The notes under the pieces are model-generated. The model saw nothing but the letters and a program-made list of their open reading frames with translations. It was not told the origin of the DNA and did no database searches. Source: a virus. From it: a DNA stretch of 64,000 nt. This document shows positions 24,189 to 61,403 of the stretch, in pieces (within the stretch, counting starts at the first letter, position 1; each line of letters starts with the position of its first letter). The DNA lies in the IMG/VR virus record IMGVR_UViG_3300050343_000268, positions 1 to 64,000 of that record. One strand, 5' to 3'. Position numbers and translations under genes: made by a program.

Positions 24189-24236
24189 AATTAATGTGGA
24201 TTGATGTGGCTAATGACTATTAGTTTGGAGTTTCCT

Positions 24237-25378
24237 ATGTGGATTGATAAGCTTCTTGGTGCAGAACTTTACCGTCCTCATCCTGCCTACATCATTGAGA
24301 TGGCAGTTGAGCCAGTGGTAGTACACGATTTTTCTAAGCAGCCCGGCCAGACCGTGCAGCTTGATCGTTACCGCTTCTGGGGTAAGCCTGGCACTAAGGA
24401 GTCCCGTGAGCGGACAGCCGATCAAACCCTCGGAACCGCATCAGCTCGCAACATCGTCAAGGACAAAGTACTTGGTCACCTCTGCGTGAGTACACCGGTC
24501 CTGCCGATACCCGCGACAGTGCACAGCCTTCTACCTTCAAGGTTGCACGTGAAACCCTGATCACTGCACAGCGTCTGCTGCTTGATACAGGTAACTTGAA
24601 TGTATTCCACCAGTCAATCGGTAGCTTGACGCTGCTTGATGACTACCGTCGTTGGCGTGACCGCGTCTTTGCAAACGAACTGCTTAAGGCTGAAGCCTGA
24701 AGGCAAGTCTTCGAAAGAGCAAGGCGGTTACTACCTTCCCGGTGGCAAAGCAAAAGATGCCACTGGCGGCACTCTTGGGTGTTACCTACGCAGCTGGCGA
24801 ATCTGCCAAGTTTGATATCACTACTGACCTTCTCGAAGTTGTTAAGGACATGCGTAAGCGCAATGTTCCCACCTTCGCAGATGGTTACTACCGCTGTATC
24901 GTTGACCCCACGGCAATGATGCACCTTCGTCAGAATTCTGACTTCCGCGAGATTGCTCGCTACCCCGGTACTGGGATGATTAATCCCATGTCCCCCAACC
25001 AGGCACCCAACGCTAATTTCTACCAAGGAATGGGTCCTGCTTACGGACAAGCCGGTTTTGTGGCTGGTCAGCCCGTAATGCCTACAGGCTTCCTCTTTGA
25101 GGGTGTCCGTTGGTTCGAGTCAACCAACCTTCCCGAAACCAATTACAACTTGGTTATTACTGATGAGAACGCAGCTGCTGCTGACTATGCAGCATCGCAG
25201 CTTGATCTTCTTCGGTCCTCAAGCCGTTGGCGTGGGTATCGGTGGTAATAACGCTCAGATTCTTCTGAACAACAATGATGACTTCTCACGATTCATCATC
25301 ATGATCTGGAGTCTGTTCGCCGGTTTTGAAACCTTGAATAAGGATTTCATCACGGTTGGTTACTCTTTCGTATATTGA
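24237..25378 (+). CDS. Major capsid protein (reading frame broken by several indels)
   Basis: The frame opens with MWIDKLLGAELYRPHPAYII and, after corrections near 24472, 24690-24715, 24760 and 25205, continues through REYTGPADT, RETLITAQRLLLDTGNL, SLTLLDDYRRWRDRVF, GYYRCIVDPTAMMHL, and ends DFITVGYSFVY. This is a cyanophage HK97-fold major capsid protein of about 380 residues. The breaks occur in ordinary sequence with extra or missing single bases, so they look like sequencing errors rather than decay. A Shine-Dalgarno GGAG lies 11 bases before the ATG. The opening 13 bases TATGTGGATTGAT are repeated 43 bases upstream. Confidence 0.82.
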
Positions 25379-25394
25379 TAGGAGTTAACTAATC

Positions 25395-26037
25395 ATGACT
25401 GTAATTTTTCCAGGTAACTATGTAGCCCAACTGAACGCCTATCGCGATCAGGGTGTTGTGGCTATCCCCGGTGTTGAGTTTTATCGCGCTGTTGGCGCAC
25501 TGTAGTGCTTAACCCAGACAACGACAGCATGTACTGATGCCAGCGGTACGCTTGACAGCAGGAAGCTACACGCCTCAGATCTTGTCTCCTGACCTTCGTC
25601 AGGACGACAAGCCACGTAAGGATCGTCCTTTGACTATTCCTGCAAATGCTGTTGTATATCGCACAGCAATTTCAGCACCTGGTGTGAAAGAAGCAACTGT
25701 TGCCGGTAGCGGCACCATTGTTCTTGGAACACTTGGTTCTAATGCACCAACTAGTTCAACGCTTACTGCTGAAGCCGACGGCTTCTTCCCAGAAGCTGGA
25801 ACTTCATCCGCGCTTAACAGCATTGTTGATGGCACCGCTATCAGCACAAGTGCTGCTACTGCTGTGACTGTAACCACTGATGTGAGTTATATTCCTGAAG
25901 TCAAGCCTTCCCCTGGTGCTGGTCGTAAGTCACCTTCTGCCATTTTGGTTGAAGTGTGCTACTACATTCCCGCCCCTGCGCCTTCCTACGACGACGTAAG
26001 TATTCCTTACGCTGTTGAAGCTGGCCAAGGTTATTGA
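25395..26037 (+). CDS. Head decoration-like protein (frame broken)
   Basis: MTVIFPGNYVAQLNAYRDQG begins at 25395. After small indels around 25502, 25548 and 25555 the frame continues with TAGSYTPQILSPDLRQDD, IPANAVVYRTAISAPGV and YYIPAPAPSYDDVSIPY to 26037. The beta-rich sequence and its position 16 bases after the capsid gene fit a capsid cement or decoration protein of about 210 residues. GGAG at 25381-25384 is a good ribosome binding site. A rho-independent terminator follows. Confidence 0.6.
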
Positions 26038-26058
26038 TTTATAATCAATAAGTAATTA

Positions 26059-26089
26059 AGAACGTCTTTTAAAGAGGCGTTCTTTTTTT
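26059..26089 (+). terminator. Rho-independent terminator after the capsid genes
   Basis: AAGAACG pairs with CGTTCTT around an internal CTTT/AGAG stem, and seven T follow. It lies 22 bases after the decoration-like gene. Terminating here would let capsid and decoration mRNA accumulate apart from the connector genes. Confidence 0.75.
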
Positions 26090-26124
26090 ATGCCTATAAT
26101 AAACAAGTGTAGTAAGTCATAGTA

Positions 26125-26553
26125 ATGAGTAACTTATTTCAGGACCAGAAAACAGGTAAGCTTGTTGAATTTATCAATAAGCATGACAAAGCATTTGCAA
26201 TGGTTCGAGATGCAGGAGGAAATATTACTTATGTCCTTGATCAGTTAGTTCCCTATGACCGGGAGAAAGGACGACTGGCAAAAGTCGCTGCACCACAAAT
26301 TGCACCTGAGCCTGAAGAAGAAATGCCCACACAGTAGTTCCTATTGAAGATACACGTTTGAATTTGAATACAGCACCTGCTGAACAGATTGCAAAACGTC
26401 TGCCTGGTGTTGGTTATGCAACAGCAAACGTATTGTTGAACTACGAATGTCATCTGAGTGGTGAGCGGTTTGCAAACCTCAAGCAACTAGAAAATATTCC
26501 ACGTGTGAATTGGGAACAGCTTGATTGAAGAAGACCTTATCTTCATTAGTTAA
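26125..26553 (+). CDS. Helix-hairpin-helix protein in the head module (frame broken)
   Basis: The first frame (MSNLFQDQKTGKLVEF) stops at 26337. One base over, the sequence continues with LNLNTAPAEQIAKRLPGVGY and then a second helix and LKQLENIPRVNW, a clear ComEA-type helix-hairpin-helix with the LPGVGxxxA loop. A second indel near 26525 allows an end at 26553 (EEDLIFIS). HhH motifs bind the DNA backbone without sequence preference. In a head-completion gene this could hold the packaged DNA end. Intact length would be about 140 residues. Confidence 0.6.
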
Positions 26554-26582
26554 AATATTAATAACAAAGGTGTAGATCAGTA

Positions 26583-27127
26583 ATGGACCCACGTATTGAA
26601 CAAGTGCTTCTAGCACAAGCAGCACAAGAAGCTGAACAGGGTCCACGCTTAGTGACATGGTTGCACTTGGGTTCTGGAACTGGTGCAGCACTGGGCGCAC
26701 TAACCGGTGCTGTGCCTCACATGCAGTTGGTAAAGGATTGGCCATCTGCGTGGAACTAACCAATGATGAAACCAGGTGCTCGTATGGCAGGTGGTCTAGT
26801 TGGTCTGCAATTGTTGGGGGAGGCTTAGGTGCAGCTGCTCAAATGCAAATGGCTAATCAAACGGACCTGCTGGTGCAATGCTTGCCAAGATTCAGGCACA
26901 AGGTGGAATGATGCCAGGCGATGAAGCAAGGCTAGGAAGCAGTCTTGCGTGATGCATATTCACAACAGGGGTTACTTGGCTGATGGAATTAGATGATCTG
27001 CTGAAATCAAAAGCTCGATTCCATCATTGGAATCAATGCAGGTGCTCAAATCCCTGCTGGTGATAGAGCGCGTTTAGAAGAAGCAATGGCACTCATCCCA
27101 GATGAATTGGTACAATCAAATAGTTAA
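26583..27127 (+). CDS. Ala/Gly-rich helical virion protein (frame broken)
   Basis: MDPRIEQVLLAQAAQEAEQG opens at 26583. Pieces in all three frames follow in order: GTGAALGALTGAV, MKPGARMAGGLVGL, VGGGLGAAAQMQM, KIQAQGGMMPGDEARL, INAGAQIPAGDRARLEE, ending IPDELVQSNS at 27127. The combined product is about 180 residues with a glycine-zipper hydrophobic middle. The number of indels here is among the highest in the window. Confidence 0.5.
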
Positions 27128-27464
27128 TCACATTAGAAGATGTGATTCCGCTTGGAACAATAGTGAGTATTTTCCAGAAGACTCTGGAGGTTCTCCAAAT
27201 TACAGTAGGCTGGAGCAAATTGCAGGAGACGTGCAACGAACAATTGCAACGTCCGATCCCTTAAAGGGAGATGAGTATTTTCGAGAAATCTATTTACGAG
27301 AAGTAGATAGACTTGCTGAAACACTATATGTAGCAAACTATCGCAGGCCTGAAGTACGAAGATACTTATTTGAAAGAGCTGGATCTGAATTCATCATGTC
27401 TATTCCAGGACCTGCTGACACAGCAGTTGGGACAAGAATTATGCTAAATCTTATTTGGCGTTAA
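27102..27464 (+). CDS. Probable head-tail connector region protein (120 aa)
   Basis: A 120-residue soluble protein with two charged helices (RLEQIAGDVQRTIATSD, FREIYLREVDRLAETLYVAN) and a C-terminal beta segment. It overlaps the preceding gene by 26 bases. Position after capsid and decoration genes suggests an adaptor or connector. No family was recognised. Confidence 0.5.
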   Translation: MNWYNQIVNHIRRCDSAWNNSEYFPEDSGGSPNYSRLEQIAGDVQRTIATSDPLKGDEYFREIYLREVDRLAETLYVANYRRPEVRRYLFERAGSEFIMSIPGPADTAVGTRIMLNLIWR

Positions 27465-27467
27465 CTG

Positions 27468-27473
27468 TAGAAT
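27468..27473 (+). promoter_or_regulatory. TANAAT-type box (TAGAAT)
   Basis: TAGAATAAATA begins 4 bases after the preceding stop and 30 bases before the ATG at 27498. Confidence 0.4.
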
Positions 27474-27497
27474 AAATATAGGAATAATTAGACAATT

Positions 27498-27941
27498 ATG
27501 GCAACTCAAAAAATTACGATGGGTCGCGGTAGAGATACTGATTACCAGTCAAAACTGGCGGCAGCTACAGCACAAGCCGGTATGGGTGGTGATTACGTAT
27601 GGGGTCTACAAACTGGGATGCAGCAAGTTTATCAAAACGGAACAGGCACAGCTTCAAAAGCATCCCGTAGTCCAAAATACGGAAATGTGAACATCACTAC
27701 AGGTGATGCACTCGACGGTACATTTGGCAACTTTAAGCCAATGACCGACAGTGCTGGGAATCAAGTAACTGAGGAACCACGGAATCAAACTGGTTACCTT
27801 GAAGGTCAGTATTCAGCAACTGTTCAGCCACAGATTGATAGCGAAATTGCAGGACAACAGGCTGCAGAACGTATTCAGATGCTGGCTCAAGGACGCCAAT
27901 TCATGGGTCTAAACAATCGTCAACAAATGTACCAGGCATAA
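27498..27941 (+). CDS. Virion-like protein (147 aa), unknown
   Basis: A polar 147-residue protein (Gln, Gly, Thr rich) with an extended middle and a helical C-terminus (SEIAGQQAAERIQMLAQGRQ). The next gene starts one base after its stop. No family was recognised; structural by context. Confidence 0.55.
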   Translation: MATQKITMGRGRDTDYQSKLAAATAQAGMGGDYVWGLQTGMQQVYQNGTGTASKASRSPKYGNVNITTGDALDGTFGNFKPMTDSAGNQVTEEPRNQTGYLEGQYSATVQPQIDSEIAGQQAAERIQMLAQGRQFMGLNNRQQMYQA

Positions 27942-40553: not shown

Positions 40554-40742
40554 ATGGCTTGTAAAAAATCTGAATTTGTTACTGCTGTCAACAGCTATGC
40601 CGCTGCTCGTACAACAGGTGATGTTAATTTACAACGGCTTTCGGGAGCATTGCTAGAGCAGCTCCTCAATACCCTTGAATTTGCAGAAGAAGTAGTCGAA
40701 GGTGAAACAGAAGTGAGTGAATCGGAAGTTGTTCCTGACTAA
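40554..40742 (+). CDS. Small acidic protein (62 aa), unknown
   Basis: A 62-residue protein with one amphipathic helix (LQRLSGALLEQLLNTLEFAE) and an acidic tail. Its stop overlaps the stop of the convergent lysozyme gene by four bases. No family was recognised. Confidence 0.5.
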   Translation: MACKKSEFVTAVNSYAAARTTGDVNLQRLSGALLEQLLNTLEFAEEVVEGETEVSESEVVPD

Positions 40743-41200
40743 CTAGTTGCTAATTTAACTTCAGCATCTCGCCTTTTAACAAGGCCCAACAATGGGCCGG
40801 TATTCCCATTAACCCATTTTGGGAATTCTTCCTGAAAACACAATGCTTTCTTCTCGCCGTTATTGATACGACGAGTAAAAGTACTGTTTTCTAGTGCATT
40901 ACTGCCAACGTTAAATGCAAAACTTACAATTGCATCAAATTCATGTTGAGTTAGAACAGGTAAAATGATCTTGACGACCTGCTCTTCAAACCACATGAGG
41001 TCCTTGCGTAATAACTCTTCTGCATCATCTTCAGTAATTACCTGACCATCAAATACCTGCTGAGTGTGGCCATATCCAATCGTGAGTACTGAACTGGCGC
41101 AATAGTACGCTTTAAGCTCTAAGCCCTCAAAAGACTTGATAAGGTCAACACCAGCTTGTGATGTGCGGGTAGGCTCAACCGAATGAGCTCCCGCCTTTAC
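40739..41200 (-). CDS. GH24 lysozyme domain of the lysis gene (-1 frame, no own start for the full domain)
   Basis: A GH24 (T4/P22-type) lysozyme of about 150 residues. IKSFEGLELKAYY holds the catalytic Glu, SVLTIGYGHT holds the conserved Thr, and LTQHEFDAIVSFAFNVG, NSTFTRRINNG and GLVKRRDAEVKL follow. It cuts the glycan strand. The frame is open from the end of the peptidase gene, but the first ATG in frame (40996) lies after the catalytic Glu, so the active enzyme can only be made if ribosomes enter from the upstream frame. A -1 shift at 41200 would give a 389-residue peptidase-lysozyme fusion. Confidence 0.75.
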   Translation of the reverse strand, partial: VKAGAHSVEPTRTSQAGVDLIKSFEGLELKAYYCASSVLTIGYGHTQQVFDGQVITEDDAEELLRKDLMWFEEQVVKIILPVLTQHEFDAIVSFAFNVGSNALENSTFTRRINNGEKKALCFQEEFPKWVNGNTGPLLGLVKRRDAEVKLATS

Positions 41201-41206
41201 TTTTTT
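41165..41206 (-). promoter_or_regulatory. Candidate -1 ribosomal frameshift signal
   Basis: Read on the minus strand, the peptidase frame ends CTA-AAA-AAG-TAA. This places the strong slippery heptamer A_AAA_AAG (41206-41200) exactly in phase, right before the stop. Five bases later (spacer 41199-41195) a stem begins: GCGGG (41194-41190) pairs with CCCGC (41169-41165) and GCTC (41188-41185) with GAGC (41176-41173), loop of 8. Heptamer, spacing and stem match dnaX-type signals. The alternative is a homopolymer undercall (7 A read as 6), which is a real possibility in this sequence. Confidence 0.5.
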
Positions 41207-41907
41207 AGATTTGGATCACTAACATCCATATACCATCCACTACCTTCACCTTCAACAATCCAACGTGGGTTAAAGTTTTTGTAGCTGTATTTTATCCCTG
41301 CACCATCAAGGTTATTTGTATAGCCACCACTGCGAAGTGATGCTTCTCCATTTGGATCATTGACCACCCACACTTCGTTGTCGTCGTCATAGCCAATAAT
41401 TACTGAGTAATGACCAGACCCTGAAGGTGAGCTAACAGGCCCCTCAAATAACCAACCTACTGCTACTGGTTTTCCAGCATCAATAGCGTCTTTCAAGGCT
41501 CGTGTCGTACCGTCAAACTTAAACTCTGCATCAAGATTAAGAGACTTCAGAGTGTTAACTTGTGATTGCGCATTCGTTGTATCTCCATATTGCTTACGGA
41601 TCGCGTTGTAATCGTCATCATTATCTATCTTTCCGTAGTACATTGCAACCATTGCCATGCTACTTGAAAAGCATTCTCTAAATCCCGATCCCGATGAATT
41701 ATCATTTTGACTTTGAAATGGCACACTTAATATGGTGCTGCTTGTAACCCCAGGCTTGTCACGGTAGGTCTTAACCCAAGCGTGTTGATCATCTTTAAGC
41801 ACATCTCGCATCTGCTCGTACAAAACTTGCACACCAGCCTTTTGCTGAGGTTCTGATTTGTAATACTTGAAAAAGTTTTCAAACTCTTTGAATGATAGAT
41901 TAGCCAT
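41197..41907 (-). CDS. C39-like peptidase domain of the lysis gene
   Basis: A 236-residue protein. Residues about 60-225 match a C39/papain-like fold: ILSVPFQSQNDN, then GFRECFSSSMAMVAMYYG with the likely catalytic Cys, SGSGHYSVIIGYDD with the His, and VWVVNDPNGE with the Asp/Asn. It would cut peptide bonds in peptidoglycan or in virion or host protein. The first 55 residues are helical. It is followed without a gap by the lysozyme domain in the -1 frame. The TAAGAATAGAA sequence upstream (about 41917-41927 on the minus strand) may be its promoter. Confidence 0.7.
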   Translation of the reverse strand: MANLSFKEFENFFKYYKSEPQQKAGVQVLYEQMRDVLKDDQHAWVKTYRDKPGVTSSTILSVPFQSQNDNSSGSGFRECFSSSMAMVAMYYGKIDNDDDYNAIRKQYGDTTNAQSQVNTLKSLNLDAEFKFDGTTRALKDAIDAGKPVAVGWLFEGPVSSPSGSGHYSVIIGYDDDNEVWVVNDPNGEASLRSGGYTNNLDGAGIKYSYKNFNPRWIVEGEGSGWYMDVSDPNLKK

Positions 41908-45136: not shown

Positions 45137-45943
45137 ATGAAAGTCTCTCAATTGCTCTTAAGAGTTCGCGATGAACAAGACATTCGCGATTCAACATTTA
45201 AATGCTGGCTTAAAGCAGCTAAGCCTATAGCTGATGTTGAGGTCAACGACATCGACAGGGCTACAGTTACTCGTTATTGGCAGTCTCAGCTCAAGCCAAT
45301 CGGTCCCCTCTCTCCTGAGACACTGCGCCGCCGCCTAAGCCTGCTGACAGGCATCTGGAATATGGGAATAGAAGATGAATTTATTGATGTGCCTAACTAC
45401 TGGAGTAAGGCAAGCAAGAAGATAAAACTAAAAACTGATTACAACCGCTTAGGTAAAGAGTATCTAGTCAGACCCTTTAGTTTCTACGGGAGGTATCAGG
45501 CAGATCCCATCTTCCTAGCCATCTGGTTTCATGGCTTCCGCATCGGTGAAATTGCAGGTCTGTTGCCAAACGAAATACGGTTCGACAATCAGATCCCATA
45601 CTTCAGAATTAGAGATAATAGCCTTAGGAATATCAAGCCCGGTGCTCAGAGAGACCTGCCTATTCATCCTGAGTTCTATCCACATGTCAATCGTCTTAGA
45701 ACTGACTACAGCCAAAACCCAGGCAAGAACTGGAGTCAGATGTTTAGCGAGCGATTGGAGCTACCAAAGGGTGAAGCAGCACACTCACTGCGTCACAACT
45801 TCATTACTCGCTGTAGGTCAGCAGAGCTGCAGGACTCGATGATCTCTAAGATCGTAGGCCACAAAATAAATGGAATGACAGCACGATACGGAACTTGGAC
45901 TTTGGAGGATAAGTTAAAAGCAATTCGTCAAGTAAGGCAGTAG
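45137..45943 (+). CDS. int: Tyrosine recombinase (phage integrase)
   Basis: A 268-residue integrase. Residues 1-110 form the SAM-like core-binding domain (VEVNDIDRATVTRYWQSQ, LSPETLRRRLSLL). The catalytic domain shows the Arg in WFHGFRIGEIAGL, HSLRHNFITR (His-x-x-Arg), IVGHKI (Gly-His), and the nucleophile Tyr in ARYGTWT. Together with the tRNA-Ser core just upstream it should catalyse attP x attB recombination. It lacks a clear arm-binding domain, as many cyanophage integrases do. No excisionase was recognised. Confidence 0.92.
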   Translation: MKVSQLLLRVRDEQDIRDSTFKCWLKAAKPIADVEVNDIDRATVTRYWQSQLKPIGPLSPETLRRRLSLLTGIWNMGIEDEFIDVPNYWSKASKKIKLKTDYNRLGKEYLVRPFSFYGRYQADPIFLAIWFHGFRIGEIAGLLPNEIRFDNQIPYFRIRDNSLRNIKPGAQRDLPIHPEFYPHVNRLRTDYSQNPGKNWSQMFSERLELPKGEAAHSLRHNFITRCRSAELQDSMISKIVGHKINGMTARYGTWTLEDKLKAIRQVRQ

Positions 45944-60759: not shown

Positions 60760-61403
60760 TTAGTAGTTAATTGTGGGATGTGGCCACATTGCTTCTGTAA
60801 TTGTTGGCAGTTTTTCTCGAATAATCTCCATTGCATTTAGTGCAATTTGTGTATGCTCCCATTGGGTGCCATGCCAACTTCGCAAGTCGATGTAATGCAG
60901 CCAACTACGGATTGTGCCCGACATATACAGCCTAGTTTTGGTGTTCATAGGCAGAACTGCACGTGCACACTCCTTAGCAACGCCTGCATCAAGCATCCGT
61001 TCGTGAGTTTCATGCCTTCACAAAAGTGAATTGAGCAATATCTGAGCCGAAGTTCTCATTAACCGACTGTGGTATGTCGTCAATTGAGTTCTGACGGTTG
61101 ACTACGTCTTGCCTACGAAGATGTGGAAGTTCAAATTCAGTAGCAACTGCATAGCGTTGACTAAATTCTTGAAAAGAAAATGAACGATGTCTTAAGATCT
61201 GCGGTGCAATCGCTCGTGTTGTCTCAATCTCTAAGCACATGGAAGCCATTTCAAACGGGCTCCAGTGCTTGTGCTTAATTAAGATACTTAAGAAGACCAA
61301 CAACGTTAGGATTGTCTTCGTTAGCTGGGTTTGAAACCCTAGCAATTTTACCGATTAGTTTTTCAGCGTCTGGAGTAATCCAAACAAGTTTGGCGTCATG
61401 CAT
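60760..61403 (-). CDS. thyX: Flavin-dependent thymidylate synthase ThyX (two frameshifts)
   Basis: ThyX makes dTMP from dUMP with FAD and methylene-tetrahydrofolate. The frame opens [20 protein letters not shown] at 61403. After a one-base correction near 61285 it continues [20 protein letters not shown] and then [17 protein letters not shown], the ThyX motif (Arg-His-Arg-x2-Ser-x4-Ser). A second correction near 61010 leads to [20 protein letters not shown] and [20 protein letters not shown] to 60760. The intact length of about 214 residues is normal. Confidence 0.9.

Follow-up and report, generated by a model that had tools for sequence, protein, structure and literature searches.

Does the endolysin locus of this phage encode a lone peptidase, two separate lytic proteins, or a peptidase that is extended in a fraction of translation events into a peptidase-lysozyme? 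The window analysed here, i.e., a 64,000-nucleotide stretch of viral DNA (positions 1 to 64,000 of IMG/VR record IMGVR_UViG_3300050343_000268), carries on its minus strand a peptidase ORF that overlaps a lysozyme ORF in the -1 frame. An earlier note, based on the window sequence, proposed that a programmed -1 ribosomal frameshift fuses the two, with the caution that a miscounted run of A would leave the same pattern.

The peptidase and lysozyme reading frames

The zero-frame ORF (41907-41197, minus strand) encodes a C39-like peptidase of 236 aa and ends CTA AAA AAG TAA, as originally read, with its TAA stop at 41199-41197. It matched the Pfam family Peptidase_C39_2 (PF13529; E 1.9e-14, 54.8 bits against a cut-off of 24) and the PHROG endolysin family phrog_10051 (E 3.4e-71). 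The C39-like domain covers residues 60-186 (41350-41730, minus strand) and contains the conserved Cys (RECFSSS), His (GHYS) and Asp (NDP); these catalytic residues, by which a C39-like peptidase is recognized, are invariant in the alignment.

On the same strand, the -1 frame runs without a stop from 41215 to the TAG at 40741-40739 and encodes a GH24 (T4-type) lysozyme domain (40760-41137) with the catalytic pattern E-x8-C-x5-T, which is one form of the E-x8-C/D-x5-T pattern of GH24 phage lysozymes. The GH24 assignment agrees with the Pfam match to Phage_lysozyme (PF00959; E 2.2e-38, 131.8 bits against a cut-off of 22.3), and comparison with solved GH24 lysozymes gave a best E of 1.9e-24. When read with a -1 shift, the junction gives ...KKVKAGAHS...

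The lysozyme could in principle be made separately, from a non-canonical start codon or by reinitiation coupled to termination, and ATGA or TTGA overlaps allow reinitiation in S-SRM01 and nine other relatives. In the window, a search of the -1 frame for ATG, GTG and TTG found none ahead of codon 73, which lies downstream of the catalytic Glu, a residue that sits early in the GH24 domain; the claim that the lysozyme has no usable start is therefore borne out. The earliest near-cognate codon, ATC at codon 25, falls within the conserved start of the domain. With the distribution of stems described below, these observations make separate synthesis of the lysozyme very improbable.

Between the window and the related locus L007, dN/dS was 0.08 for the peptidase and 0.09 for the lysozyme, and across comparisons the values ranged from 0.08 to 0.16 and from 0.08 to 0.23, respectively. 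Both domains are under strong purifying selection, and the lysozyme values indicate that the -1 frame encodes a functional protein. Additionally, no stop codon was found in any lysozyme -1 frame across 65-85% identity. That the lysozyme is a decaying remnant and the peptidase the sole product might be suggested by relatives that have a peptidase without a lysozyme (S-CBP2, S-SRP02, L099 and L103, as well as L104); nevertheless, with a lysozyme dN/dS about as low as that of the peptidase and with every -1 frame free of stops, decay is scarcely conceivable.

Slippery heptamer, spacer and hairpin of the window

The heptamer A_AAA_AAG (41206-41200, minus strand) adjoins the stop codon of the peptidase and is exactly in phase with its frame, as had been stated. 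In-phase A_AAA_AAG occurs at 3 of the 17,662 codon positions in the long ORFs of the window, and the peptidase is the only long ORF that has it in its final four codons. In E. coli, -1 shifting with a stimulator has been found to be most efficient on three heptamers, A_AAA_AAG, C_CCA_AAG and G_GGA_AAG (PMC4066793).

The heptamer is followed by a 5-base spacer, TAAAG (41199-41195), which has the length originally given and contains the zero-frame stop, and by a putative stimulatory hairpin made of two stems and a 6-base loop (41194-41165). The outer stem, GCGGG/CCCGC, pairs 41194-41190 with 41169-41165, as previously described; the inner stem, which had been given four pairs, has five (GCTCA/TGAGC; 41188-41184 paired with 41177-41173). 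The stability of the hairpin corresponds to a z of -3.2 against codon-preserving shuffles, in which synonymous codons are shuffled within each lysozyme so that protein and codon usage are kept, and to a z of -2.3 against dinucleotide shuffles (61-base stretch, single-sequence fold). The window-type hairpin hardly varies, and no compensatory changes were seen among its three alignable members; support from covariation is therefore provided by the S-PM2 group, which is more distant.

No Shine-Dalgarno-like stimulator was found upstream of the window heptamer, nor was one found at a consistent upstream place among the junctions examined. Part of the S-PM2 group has a GGGGAG-like stretch at -16, which overlaps conserved Gly-Trp-Gly codons. 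An Rfam search of the endolysin region returned nothing relevant, and no tRNA genes were found in the window.

Recurrence of the split in relatives and in isolated phages

Apparent indels are numerous in the window contig, which makes its gene ends unreliable. Nine of its ORFs are split over two or three frames and are whole in the close relative G001 (IMGVR_UViG_3300050343_000277), whereas the endolysin is split alike in both. The breaks, placed by comparison with G001 or by sense, are located at 24200-27500, 34150, 38530, 43950, 51700, 53950, 56500 and 61000-61400. The caution about indels is thus justified for the contig at large and does not hold for the endolysin junction, where the split recurs in relatives.

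Our survey took in every fetched locus with both domains, after duplicates were dropped; L193, L270, L271, L276 and L279, which have no overlapping junction, were left out, and L273, L274, L277, L280 and L281 were used as ATGA-type controls. We obtained 22 distinct junctions in which the lysozyme has no start, from about 16 lineages by our own count, with L007/L013, L181/L182/L184, L190/L191 and S-CAM7/L264 being near copies and not independent. In all of them the peptidase comes first, and the lysozyme ORF overlaps it by 10-34 bases in the -1 frame. An in-phase X_XXY_YYZ heptamer is present in 22 of 22, 0-6 bases ahead of the zero-frame stop, and no lysozyme-frame start codon was found at the junction in the window or in the 21 others. 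Relatives with 85%, 67%, 68% and 65% lysozyme identity keep the split, with the same heptamer or with C_CCA_AAG in its place; in L011 and L012, for example, the A run is replaced by CTC CCA AAG TCG TAA, which contains C_CCA_AAG in phase.

The junction of L010 was placed by hand because of a nonsense codon within its peptidase. This single in-frame codon (NDPNG*ASLF, near position 2335 of L010) interrupts an otherwise conserved protein and reflects either a contig error or a decayed copy. S-CRM01 was considered and excluded, since its lysozyme is broken in the -1 sense but inside the domain and without a heptamer; the apparent -1 change (L262, about 1330-1385, near GAA AAA GAT) is possibly a sequencing error in the record.

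No close isolate was found when the window region was searched against phage records at the DNA level, and isolates were reached by searching with the fused protein sequence. Synechococcus phage S-PM2 encodes a hypothetical protein, S-PM2p153, whose gene ends GCA AAA AAG TAA and is followed by a complete GH24 lysozyme in the -1 frame, without a start codon. The split is present in three records (AJ630128, NC_006820 and LN828717), and the bases at the junction are identical in the original record, the RefSeq record and a separately deposited deletion-mutant genome. In S-CAM7, three isolate records have GTT TTT TTT CCA CAG TAG, i.e., the heptamer T_TTT_TTT. In both phages the lysozyme frame is open as far as the heptamer, and its product would be joined to the hypothetical protein encoded upstream; none of their records joins the two ORFs.

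The S-PM2 lysozyme is annotated from an internal ATG only, as a 72-aa 'putative lysin', and that of S-CAM7 as a truncated 'lysin'. The C-terminal fragments annotated in GenBank and RefSeq (L167, S-PM2, 1424-1933; L169, S-CAM7, 1442-1969) comprise 72-90 residues without the catalytic Glu, and the present analysis would correct them.

If seven A had been read as six, the gene would truly be one continuous peptidase-lysozyme frame. Homopolymers are error-prone, and further broken ORFs lie near 34.1, 38.5, 43.9 and 50-61 kb of the contig. Nevertheless, comparison of the A run among homologues, which the earlier note had recommended, showed that the six-A split recurs in S-PM2 and that L011 and L012 have no A run and yet have the slippery C_CCA_AAG; the split is found in 22 distinct junctions from separate metagenomes and from isolates with several records each, and a continuous frame has no need of a covarying stem 5 bases past the heptamer. 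Homologues with both domains in one continuous frame, which the note expected to count against its proposal, do exist (ACG-2014f, L033 and L266, with the peptidase first) but belong to other lineages, and what they demonstrate is no more than the viability of the fused protein. An error is therefore extremely unlikely in the window and already refuted for the family.

Conservation, spacing and covariation of the stem

Among the junctions without a lysozyme start, the main stem begins 4-7 bases past the heptamer, mostly 5; for L181/L182/L184 the predicted fold includes an extra short outer helix, and 6 bases separate the heptamer from the 10-pair main stem. In L011, L177 and S-CAM7, where the stop codon comes 3 or 6 bases later, the stem keeps its 5-base distance. 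The position of the stem is tied to the heptamer, not to the stop codon.

This arrangement bears on transcriptional slippage, in which RNA polymerase would add a base at the A run and the edited mRNA would be normally translated into the fusion. A runs are slippery for polymerases also, and S-CAM7 has eight T. Transcriptional realignment has been described for runs of more than 7 A or more than 8 T (PMC3711429); the six A of the window are short for this, being fewer than the roughly eight or more of a long homopolymer. In addition, slippage of the polymerase cannot account for C_CCA_AAG in L011, where there is no run, and an RNA hairpin at a fixed 5-base spacing fits ribosomes and not RNA polymerase. 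We regard this explanation as very unlikely, and ribosomal frameshifting as the one that the heptamers and stems point to.

In ten further junctions the lysozyme has its own start and begins at ATGA or TTGA. A_AAA_AAG is retained in S-SRM01 and its kin, five of the ten, and the other five have no heptamer. Their -1 frame is uninformative on slippage, since the ATGA overlap itself sets it. Against codon-preserving shuffles, z ranged from -0.75 to -4.5 in all 22 start-less junctions and from -0.55 to +1.7 in the ten with a start, with no overlap between the groups, for which no P value is given because their members are related. In single-sequence folds, z was -4.6 for L011, -2.8 for L010, -3.3 for S-PM2, -3.6 for S-CAM7 and +1.2 for S-SRM01. 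A stem and an own start codon are mutually exclusive among the junctions, and the absence of the stem where a start is present, together with its presence where the start is missing, argues further against reinitiation as the source of the window lysozyme.

L168 (S-SRM01), L183, L185, L186 and L188 combine an ATGA or TTGA start with A_AAA_AAG and have no stem; from this arrangement, they may produce the peptidase, a low-level fusion and free lysozyme.

Across the eight S-PM2-type stems, both partners have changed at 5 of 12 pairs (9 cells). The 3′ arm lies within the conserved GVELIKEF codons, and some of the covariation pairs a synonymous third base with the 5′ arm. The covariation score and percentage paired of these stems were reached by none of 500 shuffles, the 5′ arm having been placed by best pairing within 26 bases, which somewhat favours pairing; all six slid versions score far lower. 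Because aligning entire S-PM2-type junctions with MAFFT put the 5′ arms of short-loop members in the wrong place, the arms were aligned separately. Arm swaps between members lowered the pairing from 11.4 to 10.4 of 12, which is a weak test because conserved codons hold the 3′ arm.

Proposed mechanism

Taken as a family, these loci have the attributes of a bacterial -1 frameshift signal, namely a heptamer, a structure at short spacing, compensatory changes (in the S-PM2 group) and a conserved frame under selection. Based on these comparisons of sequence, it is highly probable that the endolysin gene of this phage carries a programmed -1 ribosomal frameshift, the explanation put forward at the outset; it is preferred over a homopolymer error in view of the conserved split, the covarying stems of the S-PM2 type and the lack of a stem where the lysozyme has its own start.

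Ribosomes translating the peptidase would meet A_AAA_AAG directly ahead of the stop codon, and the hairpin 5 bases downstream would stall them on the heptamer. In a fraction of passages, the tRNA-Lys in the P and A sites would slip one base back and re-pair with AAA AAA, giving rise to a 389-aa peptidase-lysozyme, while ribosomes that did not slip would terminate and release the 236-aa peptidase. One mRNA could in this way yield two forms of the endolysin, one with a single catalytic domain and one with two, and the signal would determine their ratio. We infer from the arrangement of the locus that ribosomes slip, with what efficiency they do so, and that both products act in lysis; the signal would likewise be what sets the dose of lysozyme.

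Relatives exist whose endolysin is a peptidase alone, so the 236-aa form is plausibly active without the lysozyme. The stop codon at the heptamer persists in many lineages although one inserted base would create a permanent fusion, which suggests that both products are useful. At the same time, frameshifting is not indispensable for the enzyme, as relatives exist with a continuous frame or a coupled start. The reverse order, lysozyme-peptidase, also forms one continuous frame in S-CREM1, S-CBS2 and many contigs.

In-frame fusions stand between the window clade (6 rows, support 99/97) and the S-PM2/S-CAM7 clade in the tree built from lysozymes, and the five own-start junctions included form one group. 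The tree thus places the frameshift form in at least two lineages. More speculatively, and with rather more doubt than conviction, the endolysin of these cyanophages might be a mixed enzyme in which the frameshift signal fixes the proportion of peptidase to peptidase-lysozyme subunits; the signal would have arisen or been kept separately in at least two lineages and elsewhere been exchanged for a coupled start or an in-frame fusion, so that three translational devices would tune one enzyme.

Comparison with known frameshift systems

Conserved programmed frameshifts of tailed phages are known chiefly from tail assembly chaperones. In the lambda-type chaperone (G/GT), as in the IS3 and IS1 transposases, the -1 product fuses two ORFs and X_XXA_AAG heptamers are common; unlike these, the cyanophage product is a lysis enzyme, and the stop directly follows the heptamer. 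The dnaX gene of E. coli (tau/gamma) also has A_AAA_AAG with a stem-loop a few bases downstream and yields two products of different length with a common N-terminus. In dnaX, however, the shifted product is the short one, whereas in the cyanophage endolysins it is the long one and gains a catalytic domain; dnaX, a different gene, additionally has an upstream Shine-Dalgarno stimulator, for which the cyanophage endolysins have no counterpart at a consistent place.

Among relatives, the endolysins of ACG-2014f, S-CREM1 and S-CBS2 have homologous domains in one continuous ORF and would yield the fusion only. The S-SRM01 type has homologous adjacent domains and keeps A_AAA_AAG, and it differs in its ATGA-overlapping genes, its own lysozyme start, the lack of a stem and two separate proteins.

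A frameshifted lysin has been suggested before, as far as can be judged from a citing paper: a frame change was proposed for a lactococcal phage lysin (Shearman 1994, cited in PMC10885494), from a different host. Our literature search found no report of -1 frameshifting in cyanophage endolysins, and the S-PM2 case may have been noticed before. The signal is of the canonical bacterial -1 kind; a conserved endolysin family that uses it, also in cultured phages whose records miss it, is new in the literature searched so far. A lysis enzyme with a conserved frameshift would have its catalytic make-up decided at translation. The relatives with a frameshift, a coupled start, an in-frame fusion or a peptidase alone offer a natural comparison, and use of the frameshift is testable in cultured phages.

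The phage and the neighbouring genes

A terminase family search with PF03237 found nothing. The window phage is distantly related to Synechococcus phage S-EIV1 (terminase 54%, second large protein 45%), whose endolysin genes are arranged differently from those of the window. In this relative of S-EIV1, an integrase-like protein is encoded at 45137-45943 on the plus strand (PHROG phrog_1, E 7.6e-23).

Adjoining the endolysin, a plus-strand ORF (40554-40742) encodes a 62-aa protein (MACKKSEFVTAVNSYAAAR...) with no PHROG match, which is possibly a lysis accessory. A protein similar to this 62-aa type is encoded in L004 and L005 (2196-2405), directly upstream of a different peptidase endolysin.
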